Assembly: GCF_024692365.1 (NCBI RefSeq)
Contig: NZ_JAILMR010000099.1
Location: 1 to 33,222, forward strand
Source of the DNA: Ruminococcus sp.
GTDB lineage: Bacteria > Bacillota > Clostridia > Oscillospirales > Ruminococcaceae
Direction: 5' to 3'
DNA length: 33,222 nucleotides
In this document: positions 1-29,358 of the stretch, one piece after another
Numbering within the stretch: the stretch's first letter is position 1
Layout of the letters: the number at the start of each line of letters is the position of its first letter
Position numbers and translations under genes: made by a program
Notes under the pieces: generated by a model
Databases searched by the model: none
The model's input: only the letters and a program-made list of their open reading frames with translations
What the model was told of the DNA's origin: nothing

Positions 1-318
1 ATACCACTTTGAAAGGTTGTTTAAGCTATAATTCCACAGATACAAATCGACATCGTATGGGGCAGTAATATGAGTTTCTGCATCTTCTTCATGAGTAGAG
101 AAGTATTTTGCGACATAGGTCGAATTACCGCTCTCCACCAATATATTTGATGCGAACATTTTACCCTGATCAGATGTGGAAGCCACTACTTTTTTCATCG
201 TGCTGGACGAAATCGAGTACTCTGCTGCCGCATATAGTCCGAAAAACGATAAGGCAGATAAAACGCACCACAAAGGCAGCCAGTATTTTTTCAGAAAAGT
301 CATGATTCTTTCTCTCAT
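1..318 (-). CDS. Envelope protein, N-terminal 106 residues (truncated by window edge)
   Basis: The reading frame starts at ATG 318 and stays open for 106 codons to base 1, so the C-terminus lies outside the window. An AGGAGG sits 8 nt before the ATG. The protein has a basic start (MRERIMTFLKK), one membrane segment at about residues 13-32 (WLPLWCVLSALSFFGLYAAA), then a polar outside part with KVVASTSDQGKMF and DVDLYLWNYSL. It follows the 271-aa gene by 31 nt on the same strand and is the last visible gene of the envelope operon. I do not recognise a named family. Like its neighbours it looks like a single-pass surface protein, possibly a minor subunit of the same structure. The existence of the gene is well supported; the function is unknown. 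Confidence 0.75.
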   Translation of the reverse strand, partial: MRERIMTFLKKYWLPLWCVLSALSFFGLYAAAEYSISSSTMKKVVASTSDQGKMFASNILVESGNSTYVAKYFSTHEEDAETHITAPYDVDLYLWNYSLNNLSKWY

Positions 319-349: not shown

Positions 350-1165
350 TCAGCTCTTTCGCGTTACCGAAAAATAAACCAAATCGGTTTCTTTCGCCGT
401 TTGAGTTGCCTGAACTGTATTATTCCAAGTCACTTCAAGAATAAAATACTTACAAAATTGCTTATTTGCACCCTGATCTGCATTTATTGTTGCCTGCCAA
501 TAAGAGGGAACAGCGTGAGATTCAACGTTTGTATTATCCCCATAAGTCTTATAATAGTGTGTGTCGCTCGTTCCGCTATTGGCTACACTCGCACCAGAAC
601 CCATATTCAAGTAACCGCCTGAAACTTCATCGCCCTTAACATAGTAAAGAACATCATCTTTACTTACTGTATCACCTGTGAACACCATTGTATTTTCTGT
701 GTGTTCTCCTGTAGCCTTATATTCAACATAAGTTCCGGATTCCGGCTCTGTAGTCTGCTCGGTTGCGGCGTAGATTTTGTAGGTAAACAGGTTGTTATTT
801 GTATGTGCCATTTGAAGTATAAACTGATTTGTATTTGAGCCTGAAACAGAAAAGACATACCGTTCTTCTGTGATTTTGACAGGAGTATCATTTACCGTTT
901 TGATAGTTCCATCGGCATTCAGCTGATACTCATTCACATTGATGCCGTCCAATGCGAGATTCACCTGATCTTCTCGGTGAGCCGCATTGATATACAAGGC
1001 ATTAGGATATTCAACCTTGAACATCTCGGCAGCCTTTTTCTGATTGGTAAACCATGCGTACACCGGTATCGTGACAAGCAAGGCAATAGTGAATATCATT
1101 GCGGCAATGATTTGGATTTTTTTAGAGACGGTCAGTCCCTTGAACTTTTCTATCATGTTTTTCAT
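350..1165 (-). CDS. Single-pass envelope protein with AWFTN motif (TasA/SipW-substrate-like)
   Basis: 271 aa. AGGAGG lies 9 nt before ATG 1165. Residues 1-17 are basic, about 18-38 form a membrane or signal segment (IQIIAAMIFTIALLVTIPVY), directly followed by AWFTNQ. A hydrophobic helix ending in A-(W/Y)-F-T is the hallmark of SipW-type signal peptides of TasA/camelysin-like proteins of Firmicutes. The remaining 230 residues are Thr/Asn/Tyr-rich and beta-strand-like, with no catalytic motif I can see. It lies 25 nt downstream of the 410-aa gene and 31 nt upstream of the partial gene, so the three are surely co-transcribed. Assignment to the TasA-like class is inference from the N-terminus; a pilin-like or adhesin role is an alternative. 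No signal peptidase gene is visible in the window. Confidence 0.72.
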   Translation of the reverse strand: MKNMIEKFKGLTVSKKIQIIAAMIFTIALLVTIPVYAWFTNQKKAAEMFKVEYPNALYINAAHREDQVNLALDGINVNEYQLNADGTIKTVNDTPVKITEERYVFSVSGSNTNQFILQMAHTNNNLFTYKIYAATEQTTEPESGTYVEYKATGEHTENTMVFTGDTVSKDDVLYYVKGDEVSGGYLNMGSGASVANSGTSDTHYYKTYGDNTNVESHAVPSYWQATINADQGANKQFCKYFILEVTWNNTVQATQTAKETDLVYFSVTRKS

Positions 1166-1190: not shown

Positions 1191-2423
1191 TTATGAATCC
1201 GATTCTACTGTGACCTCTATCATGAAATAGGCAATTCTTGTTCCTATCTCATAATCAGCGGCGTTATATTGCTTACTTAGGGTTTCAAAATTTGCCAATG
1301 CGTCTGCATTATAAATCATATCCTGGGTGATGGTTTCCGTAACTGTAAAAACACTTGATTTATTAGTATTTAGATATGCAAGCAGAAGCTCCTTGTCGGT
1401 ATCTGTATCGTCAGTTAAATTTATAACAGATTCCTCAACAACAGGGATACCGCTTCTAAGATTATTGGTGTTCGTCTGCAAAGCAATCTGTCCGAGGGTA
1501 TTCGTCCACATCCAGTATATAGGCACTTGAACGGCTTTTCCTTCATTTCCTGATGCTATCTTCTGATTGATAATTCTTGATGTATACGGAGTAGTATAAT
1601 AATATTCCCAAACAGTTTCACTGCCGGAGCTTCCTGAATTAGTTGTTGTTTCTCCCAATCCACCAAAGAACAATATATGCCCCTTCAGGTAATCAGCAGC
1701 CGCTATATATTTCGCAGCTTCACTTGCGGCAGTACTGTTGTTTACAGCATTTGCTGCTGTGGTAAAATCCGCTAAACTTGTAATTTCAACTATTTGCGTT
1801 CCATTATTTGTATAAACGGTTTCCTCCTCATTTGTCTCTGCATTTGTTACAGTTGATACATCGTATTTATCTATCTCAGCAAATGCAACAACATTCAGTG
1901 AGACCTTAACTTTCATTGAGCTATCCGTCTTAGGGATAACATAAAGGCTTAATTCACCACTACTTCCAGGGCTGATATCAGGTGTGATACTCTCATCTAC
2001 ATCGGTGGTATTAGGATCATCGACCTCTGGCGTATATCTTAACAGCAAGCTGTCATCGGTATAATATGTCCCTGATGTCCCGCTTGGATTTGAATAAGGT
2101 CCTGACGAACCTTCAACATACTCAGAGCGCTTAGAGTTGATAACACTTTGATTTCTAACGTTTGCACCCTTAGTTGCAATATCAAACGGTAGTGTAGCAG
2201 TTTTTATCTGCATATCGCCAACGGAAGTTTCACGGTTTTGTGTGAACCAGGAAAGCGAGGAAAAAATTAACAAAATCAACGTTAAAACTCCCATAACCCC
2301 CATCTTGATAAGCGACTTCTTCTGATTTTTCTTCTTCTCGGCAAGTTCATCAACTTTCGGACTGCTCGATGAAGCAGACTGTGCCAGTTCACCGATAGGA
2401 AATTTAGATTTATTATCATTCAT
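1191..2423 (-). CDS. Large envelope protein with SWFTQN motif (TasA/camelysin-like)
   Basis: 410 aa from ATG 2423. An upstream in-frame GTG at 2432 lies only 2 nt from AGGAGG, while ATG 2423 lies 8 nt from it, so the ATG is chosen. About 40 polar cytoplasmic residues (EKKKNQKKSLIK at the membrane border) precede a membrane segment near residues 42-58 that runs into SWFTQNRETSVGDMQI. The outside part has a PG-type strand signature (ISPGSSGELSLYVI followed by KVKVSLNV), typical of the beta-sandwich of TasA/camelysin proteins, and a Ser/Gly/Thr-rich insert near residues 90-130. The first 56 codons lie inside copy A of a 246-bp tandem duplication and match the start of the adjacent 69-aa gene. 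Probable major surface or matrix subunit of this operon (inference). Confidence 0.72.
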   Translation of the reverse strand: MNDNKSKFPIGELAQSASSSSPKVDELAEKKKNQKKSLIKMGVMGVLTLILLIFSSLSWFTQNRETSVGDMQIKTATLPFDIATKGANVRNQSVINSKRSEYVEGSSGPYSNPSGTSGTYYTDDSLLLRYTPEVDDPNTTDVDESITPDISPGSSGELSLYVIPKTDSSMKVKVSLNVVAFAEIDKYDVSTVTNAETNEEETVYTNNGTQIVEITSLADFTTAANAVNNSTAASEAAKYIAAADYLKGHILFFGGLGETTTNSGSSGSETVWEYYYTTPYTSRIINQKIASGNEGKAVQVPIYWMWTNTLGQIALQTNTNNLRSGIPVVEESVINLTDDTDTDKELLLAYLNTNKSSVFTVTETITQDMIYNADALANFETLSKQYNAADYEIGTRIAYFMIEVTVESDS

Positions 2424-2746
2424 CTGCTCCACCTCCTCAATTATCGAAAAGCAACGTATTTACGCCGTTTCAGCGGTCATCTGTTTTGTTATCATATGCA
2501 GCGAGGAAAAAATTAACAAAATTAACGTTAATATCCCCATAGCCCCCATCTTGATGAGCGACTTCTTCTGATTTTTCTTTTTTTCAGCTATCTCGTCAAC
2601 AATTGGACTACTCAGCGAAGCAGACTGTGCCAGCTCGCCGATAGGAAATTTGGATTTGTTATCATTCATCTGCTCCACCTCCTCAATTATCGAAAAGCAA
2701 CGTATTTACGCCGTTTTAGCAGTCATCTGTTTTGTTATCATATGCA
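2255..2746. repeat. 246-bp tandem direct duplication (two copies)
   Basis: Copy A is 2255-2500 and copy B 2501-2746. They align end to end without gaps, offset exactly 246, and differ at about two dozen positions (roughly 90 % identity by eye). Each copy holds, read on the minus strand, the last 41 bases of a small-protein gene (HMITKQMTA.TA stop), a 36-base intergenic part with the AGGAGG, and the first 56 codons of the next gene. Because 246 is 82 codons, the junction is in frame and creates the 69-aa gene. The 36-nt spacer with the ribosome site is almost identical in both copies, while changes cluster in the head-coding part. Confidence 0.9.
2460..2669 (-). CDS. Small membrane protein, chimera made by tandem duplication
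   Basis: 69 aa from ATG 2669 (AGGAGG 8 nt upstream; the in-frame GTG at 2678 is too close to it). Residues 1-36 are a polar head almost identical to the head of the 410-aa protein (MNDNKSKFPIGELAQSAS), followed by a membrane helix (GAMGILTLILLIFSSL). It then switches to HMITKQMTAETA and stops, the tail of the 81-aa protein. It therefore has no outside domain. The switch coincides with the repeat boundary at 2500/2501, so the gene is explained as the junction of the duplication. The reading frame is intact and its differences from the 410-aa head are mostly conservative (V/I, V/A, L/I), which suggests it is still under selection. Function unknown; it may compete with or regulate the large protein (inference). 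Confidence 0.65.
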   Translation of the reverse strand: MNDNKSKFPIGELAQSASLSSPIVDEIAEKKKNQKKSLIKMGAMGILTLILLIFSSLHMITKQMTAETA

Positions 2747-2951
2747 TAGAAGCAAATACCAGAATACCAACAGTGAGCACACCCATGACGCTTAGTTTTA
2801 TCAGCGATTTTTTGCGCTTGTTATGTTCCTCGCGCAGTTCTTCTAGCTGCTGGTCGGCGTGGGATCTTGCGGCTTCCATCAGCTTGTCGGAGGCACCGGC
2901 TTTTGCTATTTCGCCTGTCTGGATAAGGTTATTTATCTCTTTTTCGCTCAC
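2706..2951 (-). CDS. Small single-pass membrane protein, first gene of envelope operon
   Basis: 81 aa from GTG 2951, preceded by AGAGG at 8 nt; an upstream GTG at 2960 would overlap the ribosome site and is not used. Residues 1-45 are charged and likely alpha-helical or coiled-coil (SHADQQLEELREEHNKRKKS). A membrane helix follows at about 46-66 (LIKLSVMGVLTVGILVFASM), and the protein stops after HMITKQMTAKTA. The border and membrane part (KKSLIK..VMGVLT) is clearly related to the same region of the 410-aa protein, but the outside domain is missing. No ATG alternative with a ribosome site is seen. It is the promoter-proximal gene after a long leader. Function unknown; a membrane adaptor, or a regulator of export or assembly of the larger surface proteins, is possible. 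Confidence 0.65.
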   Translation of the reverse strand: MSEKEINNLIQTGEIAKAGASDKLMEAARSHADQQLEELREEHNKRKKSLIKLSVMGVLTVGILVFASMHMITKQMTAKTA

Positions 2952-3273: not shown

Positions 3274-3302
3274 AGTATAGCACATATTACACCGTTTGTC
3301 AA
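3274..3302 (-). promoter_or_regulatory. Sigma-A promoter of the envelope operon
   Basis: On the minus strand: TTGACA (3297-3302), 17 nt, TATACT (3274-3279), with TGC just before the -10 (extended -10). It is near consensus and faces the 81-aa gene about 315 nt downstream. Confidence 0.8.
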
Positions 3303-26921: not shown

Positions 26922-27848
26922 ATGGCAAAGAATGTATTTTTATTCTCGGGACAGGGCTCCCAGTACACAGGCATGGCTAAGGAGCTTTGCGAGAAGTATC
27001 CCGCCGCAAAGGCAGTATTCGATAAGGCAAACGAAGTGCTCGGCTACGATATAGCCGATATCGCTTTCAACGGTCCCGATGAGGAACTCAACAAGACCAT
27101 CAATTCTCAGCCAGCTATAATGGCTTGCTCTCTTGCAGCCTTTGAAGCCGCAAAAGCCGAGGGCATCACCTTTGACGGCGTTGCAGGTCATTCTCTGGGT
27201 GAATATGCCGCAATGGTCGCAGCAGGTGTTGTATCCACCGAAGACGGCTTCAAGCTGATAAAGGCAAGAGCTTCCGCTATGCAGAAAGCAGCCGAGAGCT
27301 CAAGCGGCTCGATGTACGCTATAATCGGTCTTGAGGCTTCCGAAGTCGAGAAAGTTTGCGAGGAGACCGAGGGCTATGTAGTTCCCGTAAACTATAACTC
27401 GTCTGTACAGACAGTTATCGCGGGCGATACCGCAGCCTGCGAAGCCGCAGCCGCAAAGTTCGCCGAGATGAAGAAAAAAGCCATCAAGCTGAACGTTGCC
27501 AGCGCATTCCACTCCAAGCTGATGCAGCCTGCAGCCGATGAATTCATCACTGCCGCAAAGGACATCACATTCAAGCCCGCCGAAAAGGAATTCTATTCCA
27601 ACGTACTGGGCACCAAGCTCACCGATTTCTCAAATATGCCCGAACTTCTGGCAAAGCACATAGTTTCACCCGTTAAGTTCACATCAGAACTCTCTGAGAT
27701 GGAAAATGCAGGCTACGAGAATTTCATCGAGCTGGGACCCAACAAGGTACTTACAGGTCTTGTCAAGAAGACCCTCAAAGGTAAAAACGCTGTAAATATC
27801 GAGAATGAAGCTACTCTGGCTAAGGCACTTGAAAGTCTGAACGGCTAA
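26922..27848 (+). CDS. fabD: Malonyl-CoA:ACP transacylase FabD
   Basis: 308 aa; AGGAGG 7 nt before ATG 26922. Motifs: FLFSGQGSQYTGM, nucleophile Ser in VAGHSLGEYAAMVAAG (S91), QKAAESSSGSMYAIIG (substrate Arg/Gln region; the preceding KARASAMQ is conserved), catalytic His in VASAFHSKLM, and ELGPNKVLTGLVKK. It transfers malonyl from CoA to ACP. It is the only fatty-acid gene not in the operon and reads away from fabH; it is alone between its leader and a terminator. Confidence 0.96.
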   Translation: MAKNVFLFSGQGSQYTGMAKELCEKYPAAKAVFDKANEVLGYDIADIAFNGPDEELNKTINSQPAIMACSLAAFEAAKAEGITFDGVAGHSLGEYAAMVAAGVVSTEDGFKLIKARASAMQKAAESSSGSMYAIIGLEASEVEKVCEETEGYVVPVNYNSSVQTVIAGDTAACEAAAAKFAEMKKKAIKLNVASAFHSKLMQPAADEFITAAKDITFKPAEKEFYSNVLGTKLTDFSNMPELLAKHIVSPVKFTSELSEMENAGYENFIELGPNKVLTGLVKKTLKGKNAVNIENEATLAKALESLNG

Positions 27849-27857
27849 GATCATCTT

Positions 27858-27884
27858 CCCCTCGCTTACGGCGAGGGGATTTTT
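27858..27884 (+). terminator. Intrinsic terminator of fabD
   Basis: CCCCTCGC (27858-27865) pairs with GCGAGGGG (27871-27878), followed by ATTTTTA, 10 nt after the stop. Confidence 0.9.
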
Positions 27885-27897
27885 ATATACCAAGCAC

Positions 27898-27910
27898 TGA
27901 CCAATGGTCA
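27898..27910. promoter_or_regulatory. Palindrome before symporter gene
   Basis: TGACCA-A-TGGTCA, a perfect 6-bp inverted repeat, directly abuts TAATAT 30 nt before the ATG at 27940. It is a possible operator; no good -35 is seen, so the gene may also be read from fabD. Confidence 0.35.
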
Positions 27911-27939
27911 TAATATTTAAGTTAAGATAGGGGATTTTT

Positions 27940-29358
27940 ATGGAAAAATTCAACGAGATCGTAAGCGAGATAGACGGCTACGTCTGGGGTATCCCGCTTA
28001 TCGTAATGATCATGTTCTGCGGACTTCTGCTGACGATCCGCGTAGGTCTGCTGCAGATCAGAAAACTCGGTCTTGCACTGAAATATATGTTCAAGGACGA
28101 AGAGGGCGGCAGCGGCGAAGTTTCGGGATTTCAGGCACTTTGTACTGCGCTTTCCGCAACTGTCGGCACTGGTAATATCGTAGGTGTCGCAACAGCCCTT
28201 TGTGCAGGCGGTCCCGGTGCGCTTCTCTGGATGGAGATAGCCGCATTCCTAGGCATGGCTACAAAGTACGCCGAGGGCCTGCTTGCTATAAAGTATCGCC
28301 GCAAGGATCAAAACGGCAATATGCTTGGCGGACCTTTCTACTACATAGAAAGCGGCATGGGTGCAAAATGGAAATGGCTGGCAAAACTCTTCGCGCTGTT
28401 CGGTGTTCTCGCAGGACTTATGGGCATAGGCACCATAACCCAGATAAACGGCATAACCTCAGCCGCCAACGGTTTCTTCGACCCAGACAGCACACATATC
28501 GTGAACATTTTCGGCACTGATTATACATATACCACCATCATCGCGGGTATAATAATAACAGTATTCGCAGCACTGATAATCATCGGCGGCATCAAGAGGA
28601 TAGCCACCGTGTCCGAAGTCGTAGTTCCCGCAATGATAATAATTTACGTGGGAAGCTGTCTGCTGATAATCTTCACCCATCTGTCTGATATACCCGATGC
28701 AGTATCCCAGATAGTCAAGGGCGCATTCGGCGTAAGACCTCTCGCAGGCGGACTTACAGGATTCGCCGTCATGAAAGTTTCTATGCGAAGCGGCGTTGCA
28801 AGAGGTATCTTCTCCAACGAAGCAGGACTCGGTTCAGCACCTATCGCTGCCGCAGCAGCAAGAACAAGTGAACCTGTCCGTCAGGGACTTGTTACAATGA
28901 CAGGCACTTTCATCGATACTATCCTCGTCTGCACCATGACAGGACTTTCCATCGTTATGGCAGGCAGCCACGAAAAAGGTCTTGAGGGCGTAGCAGTCAC
29001 CACAGACGCATTCCGCTGCGGTCTGCCATTCCCCGAAAGAGTATCCGCATTCATGCTGATGTGCTGTCTGGCAGTATTCGCATTCACGACTATCCTCGGC
29101 TGGAATTACTACTCCGAACGCTGCCTTTCCTACCTCACAGGTTCCAAAAAGTCTGTGACAGCAGTGTATAAATGGGTTTACATCGCATTCGTTTTCATAG
29201 GACCCTACCTCACAGTTGAAGCAGTATGGAATCTGGCAGATATCTTCAACGGACTCATGGCACTCCCAAATATCATAGCGATAGTATTCCTCTCGGGTAC
29301 TGTAAGCAAAGAGACCAAGGACTACTTCAAGCGCCTGAAAGAGAAAAAATCCGCATAA
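27940..29358 (+). CDS. Sodium:alanine (AGCS family) symporter
   Basis: 472 aa with about 10-11 membrane helices. Family signatures: ALSATVGTGNIVGVATALCAGGPGALLWMEIAAFLGMATKYAEG (the GTGN and GGPGA motifs), FSNEAGLGSAPIAAAAA, and FAFTTILGWNYYSERCLSYL. It imports alanine and/or glycine with Na+ (or H+). The start ATG 27940 has GGGGA 5 nt upstream. The C-terminus is short and charged (RLKEKKSA). It lies 91 nt after fabD and is separated from it by a terminator. Confidence 0.93.
   Translation: MEKFNEIVSEIDGYVWGIPLIVMIMFCGLLLTIRVGLLQIRKLGLALKYMFKDEEGGSGEVSGFQALCTALSATVGTGNIVGVATALCAGGPGALLWMEIAAFLGMATKYAEGLLAIKYRRKDQNGNMLGGPFYYIESGMGAKWKWLAKLFALFGVLAGLMGIGTITQINGITSAANGFFDPDSTHIVNIFGTDYTYTTIIAGIIITVFAALIIIGGIKRIATVSEVVVPAMIIIYVGSCLLIIFTHLSDIPDAVSQIVKGAFGVRPLAGGLTGFAVMKVSMRSGVARGIFSNEAGLGSAPIAAAAARTSEPVRQGLVTMTGTFIDTILVCTMTGLSIVMAGSHEKGLEGVAVTTDAFRCGLPFPERVSAFMLMCCLAVFAFTTILGWNYYSERCLSYLTGSKKSVTAVYKWVYIAFVFIGPYLTVEAVWNLADIFNGLMALPNIIAIVFLSGTVSKETKDYFKRLKEKKSA

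Follow-up and report, generated by a model that had tools for sequence, protein, structure and literature searches.

How a gene for a 69-residue chimeric membrane protein came to lie directly beside the gene for a 410-residue surface protein is the question raised by a 33,222-nt stretch of DNA (the window), which is contig C140 of a genome of the Ruminococcus group (G000; 3.68 Mb in 140 contigs). A first-pass annotation had read the locus as the birth of a gene by a tandem duplication across a gene boundary. Read along the minus strand, the locus opens with a promoter-like site, after which come the genes for the 81-aa, 69-aa, 410-aa, and 271-aa proteins and one more gene, which the contig end truncates; upstream of the locus lie genes for an ECF-type sigma factor and a 572-aa protein. 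The features are listed in the order of transcription.

3274..3302, minus strand: promoter-like TTGACA-17-TATACT with TG, upstream of the 81-aa gene (11/12 consensus matches, a consensus match only)
2706..2951, minus strand: gene for an 81-aa small membrane protein with a different head type and a HMITKQMTAKTA tail
2745..2746, minus strand: first joint, CTTCTAT/GCATATG, within the 81-aa gene
2500..2745, minus strand: winU, upstream 246-bp unit (from the tail of the 81-aa gene through spacer and ribosome site to the head and helix of the 69-aa gene)
2460..2669, minus strand: gene for the 69-aa chimeric small membrane protein (open reading frame; dN/dS 0.055 against the 410-aa head)
2499..2500, minus strand: internal tandem joint, CTCGCT/GCATATG, within the 69-aa gene
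2254..2499, minus strand: winD, downstream 246-bp unit (from the tail of the 69-aa gene through spacer and ribosome site to the head and helix of the 410-aa gene)
1191..2423, minus strand: gene for the 410-aa surface protein (N-tail, helix, SWFT joint, ectodomain)
2253..2254, minus strand: head/ectodomain joint TCGCT/TTCCTGG, at which homologues switch ectodomain and to which element ends map in relatives
350..1165, minus strand: gene for a 271-aa operon partner, with a homologue 3' of the surface gene in relatives
1..318, minus strand: next gene of the operon, 341-aa type in relatives; the contig end leaves only its 5' part

The two tandem copies in the window

The 81-aa, 69-aa, and 410-aa genes are similar through the helix (KKSLIK..MG.LT...IFSS). 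The breakpoint lies at the same codon position in all three, right after the helix, where the surface protein goes on with SWFT; this codon junction between membrane helix and ectodomain is termed the joint. The ectodomain was modeled with many strands at low confidence. The fold of the 410-aa protein predicted from a five-sequence alignment (mean pLDDT 57.4) had no PDB match at E <= 0.001, and a sequence search of the PDB with the same protein gave none at E <= 0.1. The head of the 81-aa protein is 49% identical to the heads of intact surface genes in genomes G027 and G023.

Two repeat finders, one of them TRF, and an alignment confirmed that the copies form a gapless direct repeat of 246 bp (2254-2499 and 2500-2745, or 2746) with 89% identity. 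The offset of one base relative to the earlier coordinates is due to the base before the repeat, which is T in both copies. winU and winD are identical at 220 of 246 positions, and 24 of the 26 differences fall in the coding head, 18 of these 24 at codon position 3. Chance is excluded as the source of a repeat of such size and identity. Inspection of the reading frames also bore out that the edges of the unit lie inside two different genes and that the junction is in-frame. The 69-aa gene is exactly what had been described: the tail of the 81-aa protein, HMITKQMTAETA, attached in the frame of the head and helix of the 410-aa protein. Its ribosome site is present in the same GAGGAGGTGGAGCAG leader that precedes the 410-aa gene.

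Over the 56 codons of the two window heads, 18.0 synonymous differences at 35.3 sites were counted along with 6.0 nonsynonymous differences at 132.7 sites, which corresponded to the dN/dS of 0.055 given above. Other head pairs with differences yielded values of 0.03-0.59. In the relative L075, the small-gene head adjoining the surface gene gave 0.085 against the surface head, and the small genes of the relatives L076 and L078 gave 0.138 (dS 1.19). These ratios point to constraint on the heads, although conversion from surface genes could copy such a signal into the small genes.

The divergence of about 10% between the copies is real (26/246), but it does not serve as a clock of divergence in place. 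winU and winD do not differ in the last 43 nt, which run from the end of the tail across the spacer up to the start codon, whereas 18 of 56 third positions of the head differ (Fisher p 9e-6). Thus, the divergence is that of a mosaic. The 36-nt spacer taken alone is likewise identical, and the first 76 nt of the unit (tail, stop, spacer) contain 2 differing sites. Moreover, the 81-aa gene is not a plain parent, because it consists itself of a head and the same tail.

Further small genes were seen elsewhere. A separate 59-aa small membrane protein with distant likeness to the 81-aa protein is encoded at L087, L090 (contig C41 of the window's own genome), L093, and L096; its gene is located 5' of the gene for a 300-aa protein in L090, L093, and L096 and 3' of one for a 471-473-aa protein in L087, L093, and L096. 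Another head-only small protein (62 aa, ending AWLSMK) is encoded at L085:2463-2651; the 5-kb L085 stretch gave no surface-operon match at E <= 1e-3.

Distribution of the unit among genomes

A contig scan with the 410-aa protein yielded six relatives, L074-L079. In L076 (strain YAD2003), L077, L078, and L079, one small gene ending MHMITK or MHMTIK was found directly 5' of the surface gene. L075 contained two 69-aa-type genes at 246-bp spacing plus a frameshifted small gene upstream, and in L074 (strain Y1) no such small gene was seen before the surface gene. In the relatives, the unit was accordingly present once in four other genomes and three times in one. When cut between joints, it measured exactly 246 bp in all eight complete copies (two in the window, three in L075, and one each in L076, L077, and L078), and the unit of L079 was cut at 199 by the contig end. 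The unit therefore occurs in six genomes with constant length and sharp edges, and its flanks are unlike on both sides: the surface-gene-adjacent units had a mean identity of 88.3% (15 genome pairs), compared with 53.1% for the 60 nt on the left (15 pairs) and 60.1% for the 60 nt on the right (10 pairs). The first small gene of the three-unit array, L075:5741-5944, is frameshifted at an A-run, and its protein may be dispensable or the gene misassembled.

A DNA search detected the full unit in 3 of 396 family genomes, namely G000, where two units occupy one locus, and the genomes of L077 and L075. The latter two belong to another genus, g137 (as G248 and G351, with the same coordinates and scores), and they are the two of the seven g137 genomes that contain the full unit. 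In the genus of L076 it was found in 1 of 125 genomes, and one more had a 127-nt partial match. The tail of five units (L075_1, L076, L077, L078, and L079) contains a TAG stop. CAG replaces it in four units, all in arrays (winU, winD, L075_2, and L075_3); L075_1, the first unit of its array, keeps TAG.

The 20-mer GCTGAAACGGCGTAAATACG, which falls in the end of the tail and the spacer, is located at 2455-2474 (winD) and, with one mismatch, at 2701-2720 (winU). With at most one mismatch it occurred in 5 of 125 genomes; a control pattern occurred in 0 of 125. By reading, three of the sites are located at the 3' end of guaA, and the other two are next to a guaA-end-like fragment. The guaA-side sites adjoin palindromes and GGCAAC repeats and look like an integration site. 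The flank of guaA in the window's own genome is different, and convergence could explain the palindromic core, so an attachment sequence common to the unit and guaA was set aside as a lead. A search of viral contigs gave 26 pattern matches, none of which was confirmed as a relative, and two DNA patterns were without match.

In the other genomes, the units were 80-93% identical to winD. The fatty-acid genes of these genomes were 66-78% identical to those of the window in DNA matches of at least 200 nt and 54-78% identical when compared codon by codon, with synonymous sites near saturation (dS 1.37 to infinite); L078 and L079 were the most distant in these genes (49-56% at the amino acid level). 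In the heads, exact shared stretches reached 91 nt between the window and L077, 85 nt between the window and L076, 77 nt between the window and L075, and 92 nt between L076 and L077, and the match between the window and L078 was just 35 nt. A 128-nt identity of L079 was dropped as proof, since the match stops at the end of the L079 contig.

A sister relationship of the two window heads was rejected (p-AU 0.0385, delta logL 29.1, heads only), and so was a tree that kept the g137 copies together (p-AU 0.0085); a tree with the three L075 heads together was not rejected (p-AU 0.158). With moderate support, the 69-aa head was placed with units of a genome from another genus and the 410-aa head with other genomes. 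A constraint grouping three small-position heads was discarded on account of inconsistent p-values (KH 0.167, AU 8.7e-9, at equal likelihood). Inside the unit, winD and L076 are 92% identical in the head and 65% in the spacer region, compared with 86 and 100% for winU and winD. Spacer and head types have thus been re-paired, implying that homologous exchange occurred within the unit too and that the 10% divergence is not a clock. Judged from these comparisons, the unit has moved between lineages. A single local duplication followed by divergence, as originally proposed, does not account for heads that are not sisters or for a unit that is present elsewhere singly or in threes. What stood of the proposed gene birth is a chimeric, in-frame, and apparently constrained small gene.

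The joint, orphan heads, and recombinase genes

Twenty-five surface proteins were compared (win410, L074-L078, and 19 from genus genomes; L075, L078, and L082 are cut by contig ends), the ectodomains over their first 250 residues. Head identity and ectodomain identity correlated weakly (Spearman 0.19, 300 non-independent pairs). The window and L076 are 91% identical in the head and 34% in the ectodomain; the corresponding values are 49 and 83% for L076 and L102 and 29 and 55% for L077 and L104. Between L074 and L078, nucleotide identity jumps from 30-70% to 100% at the joint (75 nt available). Among the unit carriers window, L075, L076, and L077 (six pairs), the ectodomains have 25-41% amino acid identity, and a span of some 12-24 nt at the joint is enough for identity to drop from above 90% to about 50%. 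A 271-aa-type partner was found 3' of the surface gene in 13 of the 17 loci listed, the remaining four being cut by the contig end. Heads and ectodomains, as compared here, have separate histories.

Orphan heads without an ectodomain were present in genomes G006 (L089/L166) and G509 (L146/L164). Behind the joint, their tails continue for five codons (QSRTI in G006 and DSHTF in G509) followed by TAG ATGAC, and the units with TAG similarly read HMITK and then TAG ATGACC. The stop motif TAGATGAC is common to the orphan-head tails and the five TAG units at the same codon offset; the two window copies read CAGATGAC in its place and are without the TAG stop. The two orphan heads have homologous DNA on the element side (51/72, E 6e-8). 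In G006, the stub lies about 690 bp from a cluster of three recombinase-family ORFs, two of which have Resolvase, Recombinase, and zinc-ribbon domains and the short middle one a Recombinase domain only. In G509, about 260 bp separate the stub from a 90-aa remnant, which is 52% identical to the C-terminus of a G006 recombinase and was not recognized by Pfam alone.

Three clustered recombinase genes occur in G006, in G022, and on contig C78 of G000, and G063, the genome of L076, has one full recombinase at the element end. All three domains were found in 7 of the 10 recombinase-cluster proteins scanned (two each from G006, G022, and G000-C78 and one from G063), and the middle ORFs of the three clusters (288-314 aa) have the Recombinase domain without Resolvase. 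A relaxase-like ORF was seen by eye on G000-C78. When the 547-aa G006 recombinase was used as a query (E <= 1e-10), all 12 genomes searched gave matches, several each, which a large family would lead one to expect. Judged by coordinates, recombinase genes or remnants with at least 45% identity to the G006 protein lay within 16 kb of surface-type sequence in 6 of the 12 (G000-C45, G006, G022, G063, G064, and G509). In G063 the unit and the recombinase (60% identity) share a contig, the recombinase 15.7 kb beyond the unit; in G064, the genome of L077, a partial one (51%) lies 14.5 kb past the unit. G022 has one of 62% identity a few kb away from surface-type genes and additional copies at a distance of about 30 kb from other surface genes. 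The window's own genome has a recombinase of 57% identity in the C78 cluster of three, unlinked to the window contig, and a C-terminal remnant of 45% identity on C45. G022:C2 and G022:C5 have the same neighborhood of surface gene and recombinase with equal scores, representing either a large repeat or a redundant contig.

In G063, the joint is located at about 11469, the recombinase gene at 27159-28790, and a second ectodomain gene at about 30135, 18.7 kb on. The DNA between the joint and this second ectodomain contains the ectodomain gene that has a head, a pair of partner genes, an ORF of 3582 residues, and the recombinase gene, and the second ectodomain lies behind a short pseudo-head, VKWIVIRFVLMT, with no normal head. 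The right end on C45 reads in a similar order: recombinase C-terminus, end sequence, and then a different headless ectodomain and two partner-type ORFs (by reading). From position -180 to -60 the two right ends match at 119 of 120 positions and in the last 60 nt at 50 of 60, so that identity falls from 99 to 83%. In the right ends, the TAGATGAC motif is inverted and 108 nt from the joint rather than 15-16, and they are therefore not exact partners of the stub tails. A conserved TGGTTyAC at the joints could serve as the short direct repeat of attL/attR; it also encodes a conserved motif.

The C45 locus (L193, 3212-4102, minus strand) is a second surface operon without a normal head, lying behind the recombinase C-terminal remnant. 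It is probably silent, and we read it as a displaced resident operon. On G006:C5, the L097 head (about 17.1 kb, plus strand) and the stub (about 43.2 kb, minus strand) are copies of promoter region plus head, with 83% identity over 374 nt. They point toward each other across about 26 kb that contains the recombinase cluster and could bound an invertible segment.

The alignments identify the joint as a point at which integrative DNA with large serine recombinases ends. Collinearity and common ends are seen directly in these sequences; from them we infer direction, an att core, excision, and activity.

Origin of the unit and related systems

Several processes could have produced this arrangement. 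A tandem duplication across the boundary of the 81-aa and 410-aa genes, with the copies diverging in place, would account for a contiguous 246-bp unit whose junction lies within the new gene and for the near identity of the first 76 nt; because the three genes are similar through the helix, unequal crossing-over would keep the frame. Given that sister heads were rejected, that the 69-aa head is nearer to units of another genus, and that the same unit occurs in five other genomes with different flanks, we regard this as unlikely, even though a local duplication with later import of one head allele would still fit. An assembly artefact would be suggested by the several copies near contig ends and by the 128-nt L079 match, which stops at a contig end as a shared assembly k-mer would. 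It is highly improbable, since the local copies differ at 26 sites, arrays occur in independent assemblies (window and L075), and in both L077 and the strain record L076 the unit has a mid-contig position.

It is rather unlikely that the operon is simply hypervariable and was reshuffled solely by homologous recombination between strains, with the recombinase links incidental. Conservation of the head and of the downstream genes would then set the breakpoint at the joint, and both the mosaic of spacer and head types inside the unit and the abundance of serine recombinases in these genomes agree with such a process. However, the ectodomains of the unit carriers are too unlike to provide homology at the right edge, yet identity falls sharply at the joint. 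Recombinase genes or remnants near surface-type sequence in half of the genomes searched and a second ectodomain directly behind the element end in two genomes also speak against it.

We consider it somewhat probable that the 246-bp unit is a module (capping tail, spacer, ribosome site, and replacement head) of a surface locus that is cut and rejoined at the joint, where integration swaps ectodomains. An element would integrate site-specifically at the helix/ectodomain joint, and its otherwise headless ectodomain gene would be fused in frame to the resident promoter, ribosome site, and anchor head. The previous ectodomain would be displaced behind the right end of the element and silenced. Heads facing an element end would be capped by its first codons and become small membrane proteins, the 81-aa and 69-aa proteins among them. 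The unit itself would be an element-end fragment fused to a ribosome site and head, and tandem units would be extra capped heads, kept as head plus helix under purifying selection. Because the small proteins are the anchor of the full-length protein without its ectodomain, one may guess that they act as its membrane partners or competitors.

No element was seen on the window contig, as this contig ends inside the operon. Several observations count against integration at the joint: the recombinase triplet of the window's own genome is unlinked to the surface gene, being located on C78; the TAG stop is missing from the window's units; in the right ends the motif is too far from the joint and identity declines over the last 60 nt; G063 has a single full recombinase at the element end instead of a triplet; every one of the 12 genomes searched has several large serine recombinases, which are thus common; the first small gene of L075 is frameshifted; and ordinary recombination within the unit also occurs. 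The idea that the 81-aa head is an old head left by an insertion is only partly supported, since this head best matches the G027 and G023 operons, whose ectodomains are not the closest. In a variant that seems improbable to us, the unit would be a mobilisable att cassette moved in trans by serine-recombinase elements and the array a record of past integrations; each insertion at the joint would cap the old anchor and give the ectodomain a new promoter-proximal anchor.

Integration of a module at the joint would resemble known systems in part. Shufflons have a constant N-terminus and an exchangeable C-terminus joined at a fixed point. Here too, one fixed point links a constant head with outer parts that vary, but the exchange appears to proceed by integration rather than through an array of inverted segments, with one possible inversion in G006. 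Secreted fiber proteins of the SipW/TasA type have an AWFT signal, and in the surface family the helix is similarly followed by (A/S)WFT. An ORF located downstream in L190 gave a weak, below-cutoff match to signal peptidase (Peptidase_S26, E 3e-4), and no match to SipW or TasA family models was obtained (NCBIfam, Pfam).

Streptococcal integrative and conjugative elements with serine-integrase triplets integrate within genes, where 2-8-bp repeats are involved; disruption of the target gene is reported, as is a catalytic Resolvase domain in all of the integrases (Ambroset et al. 2016, PMC4701971). The three clustered genes of the large-serine-recombinase family in G006, G022, and G000-C78 and the proposed site-specific insertion within a gene are similar to these elements; unlike there, the joint appears to rebuild a complete surface gene, and the middle ORF of our clusters has a Recombinase domain without the catalytic Resolvase. 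Rickettsia palindromic elements and other MITEs lie in frame in genes and make new proteins (PMC10969869, PMC2229807, PMC2759123). They share with the unit that a small conserved DNA in coding sequence is open in frame and yields new small proteins. They are repeats of about 100-200 bp dispersed in unrelated genes, whereas the unit occupies a single locus in the window's genome and brings with it a tail, a ribosome site, a start, and a membrane anchor. No inverted repeat of at least 25 nt was found at the unit ends. The unit as a free MITE was rejected, because it has a single locus in the window's genome.

In our searches of openly licensed literature we recognized no report on this surface family or on the birth of small genes in this way in Ruminococcus, and none of the exchange of surface ectodomains by integration at a helix joint. 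The feature noticed in the first-pass annotation is true and unusual, yet it is better described as one state of a recurrent module, shared horizontally and located at a recombination joint, than as a single birth event. If integration works as proposed, an integrative element would change what the cell displays: an ectodomain gene without a usable start would be switched on by in-frame fusion to an anchor, and the old ectodomain would be shelved, so that surface variation in rumen and gut bacteria would be driven by horizontal transfer. It would also provide a concrete route, testable in strains of Ruminococcus flavefaciens, for the repeated birth of small membrane-protein genes from larger ones.
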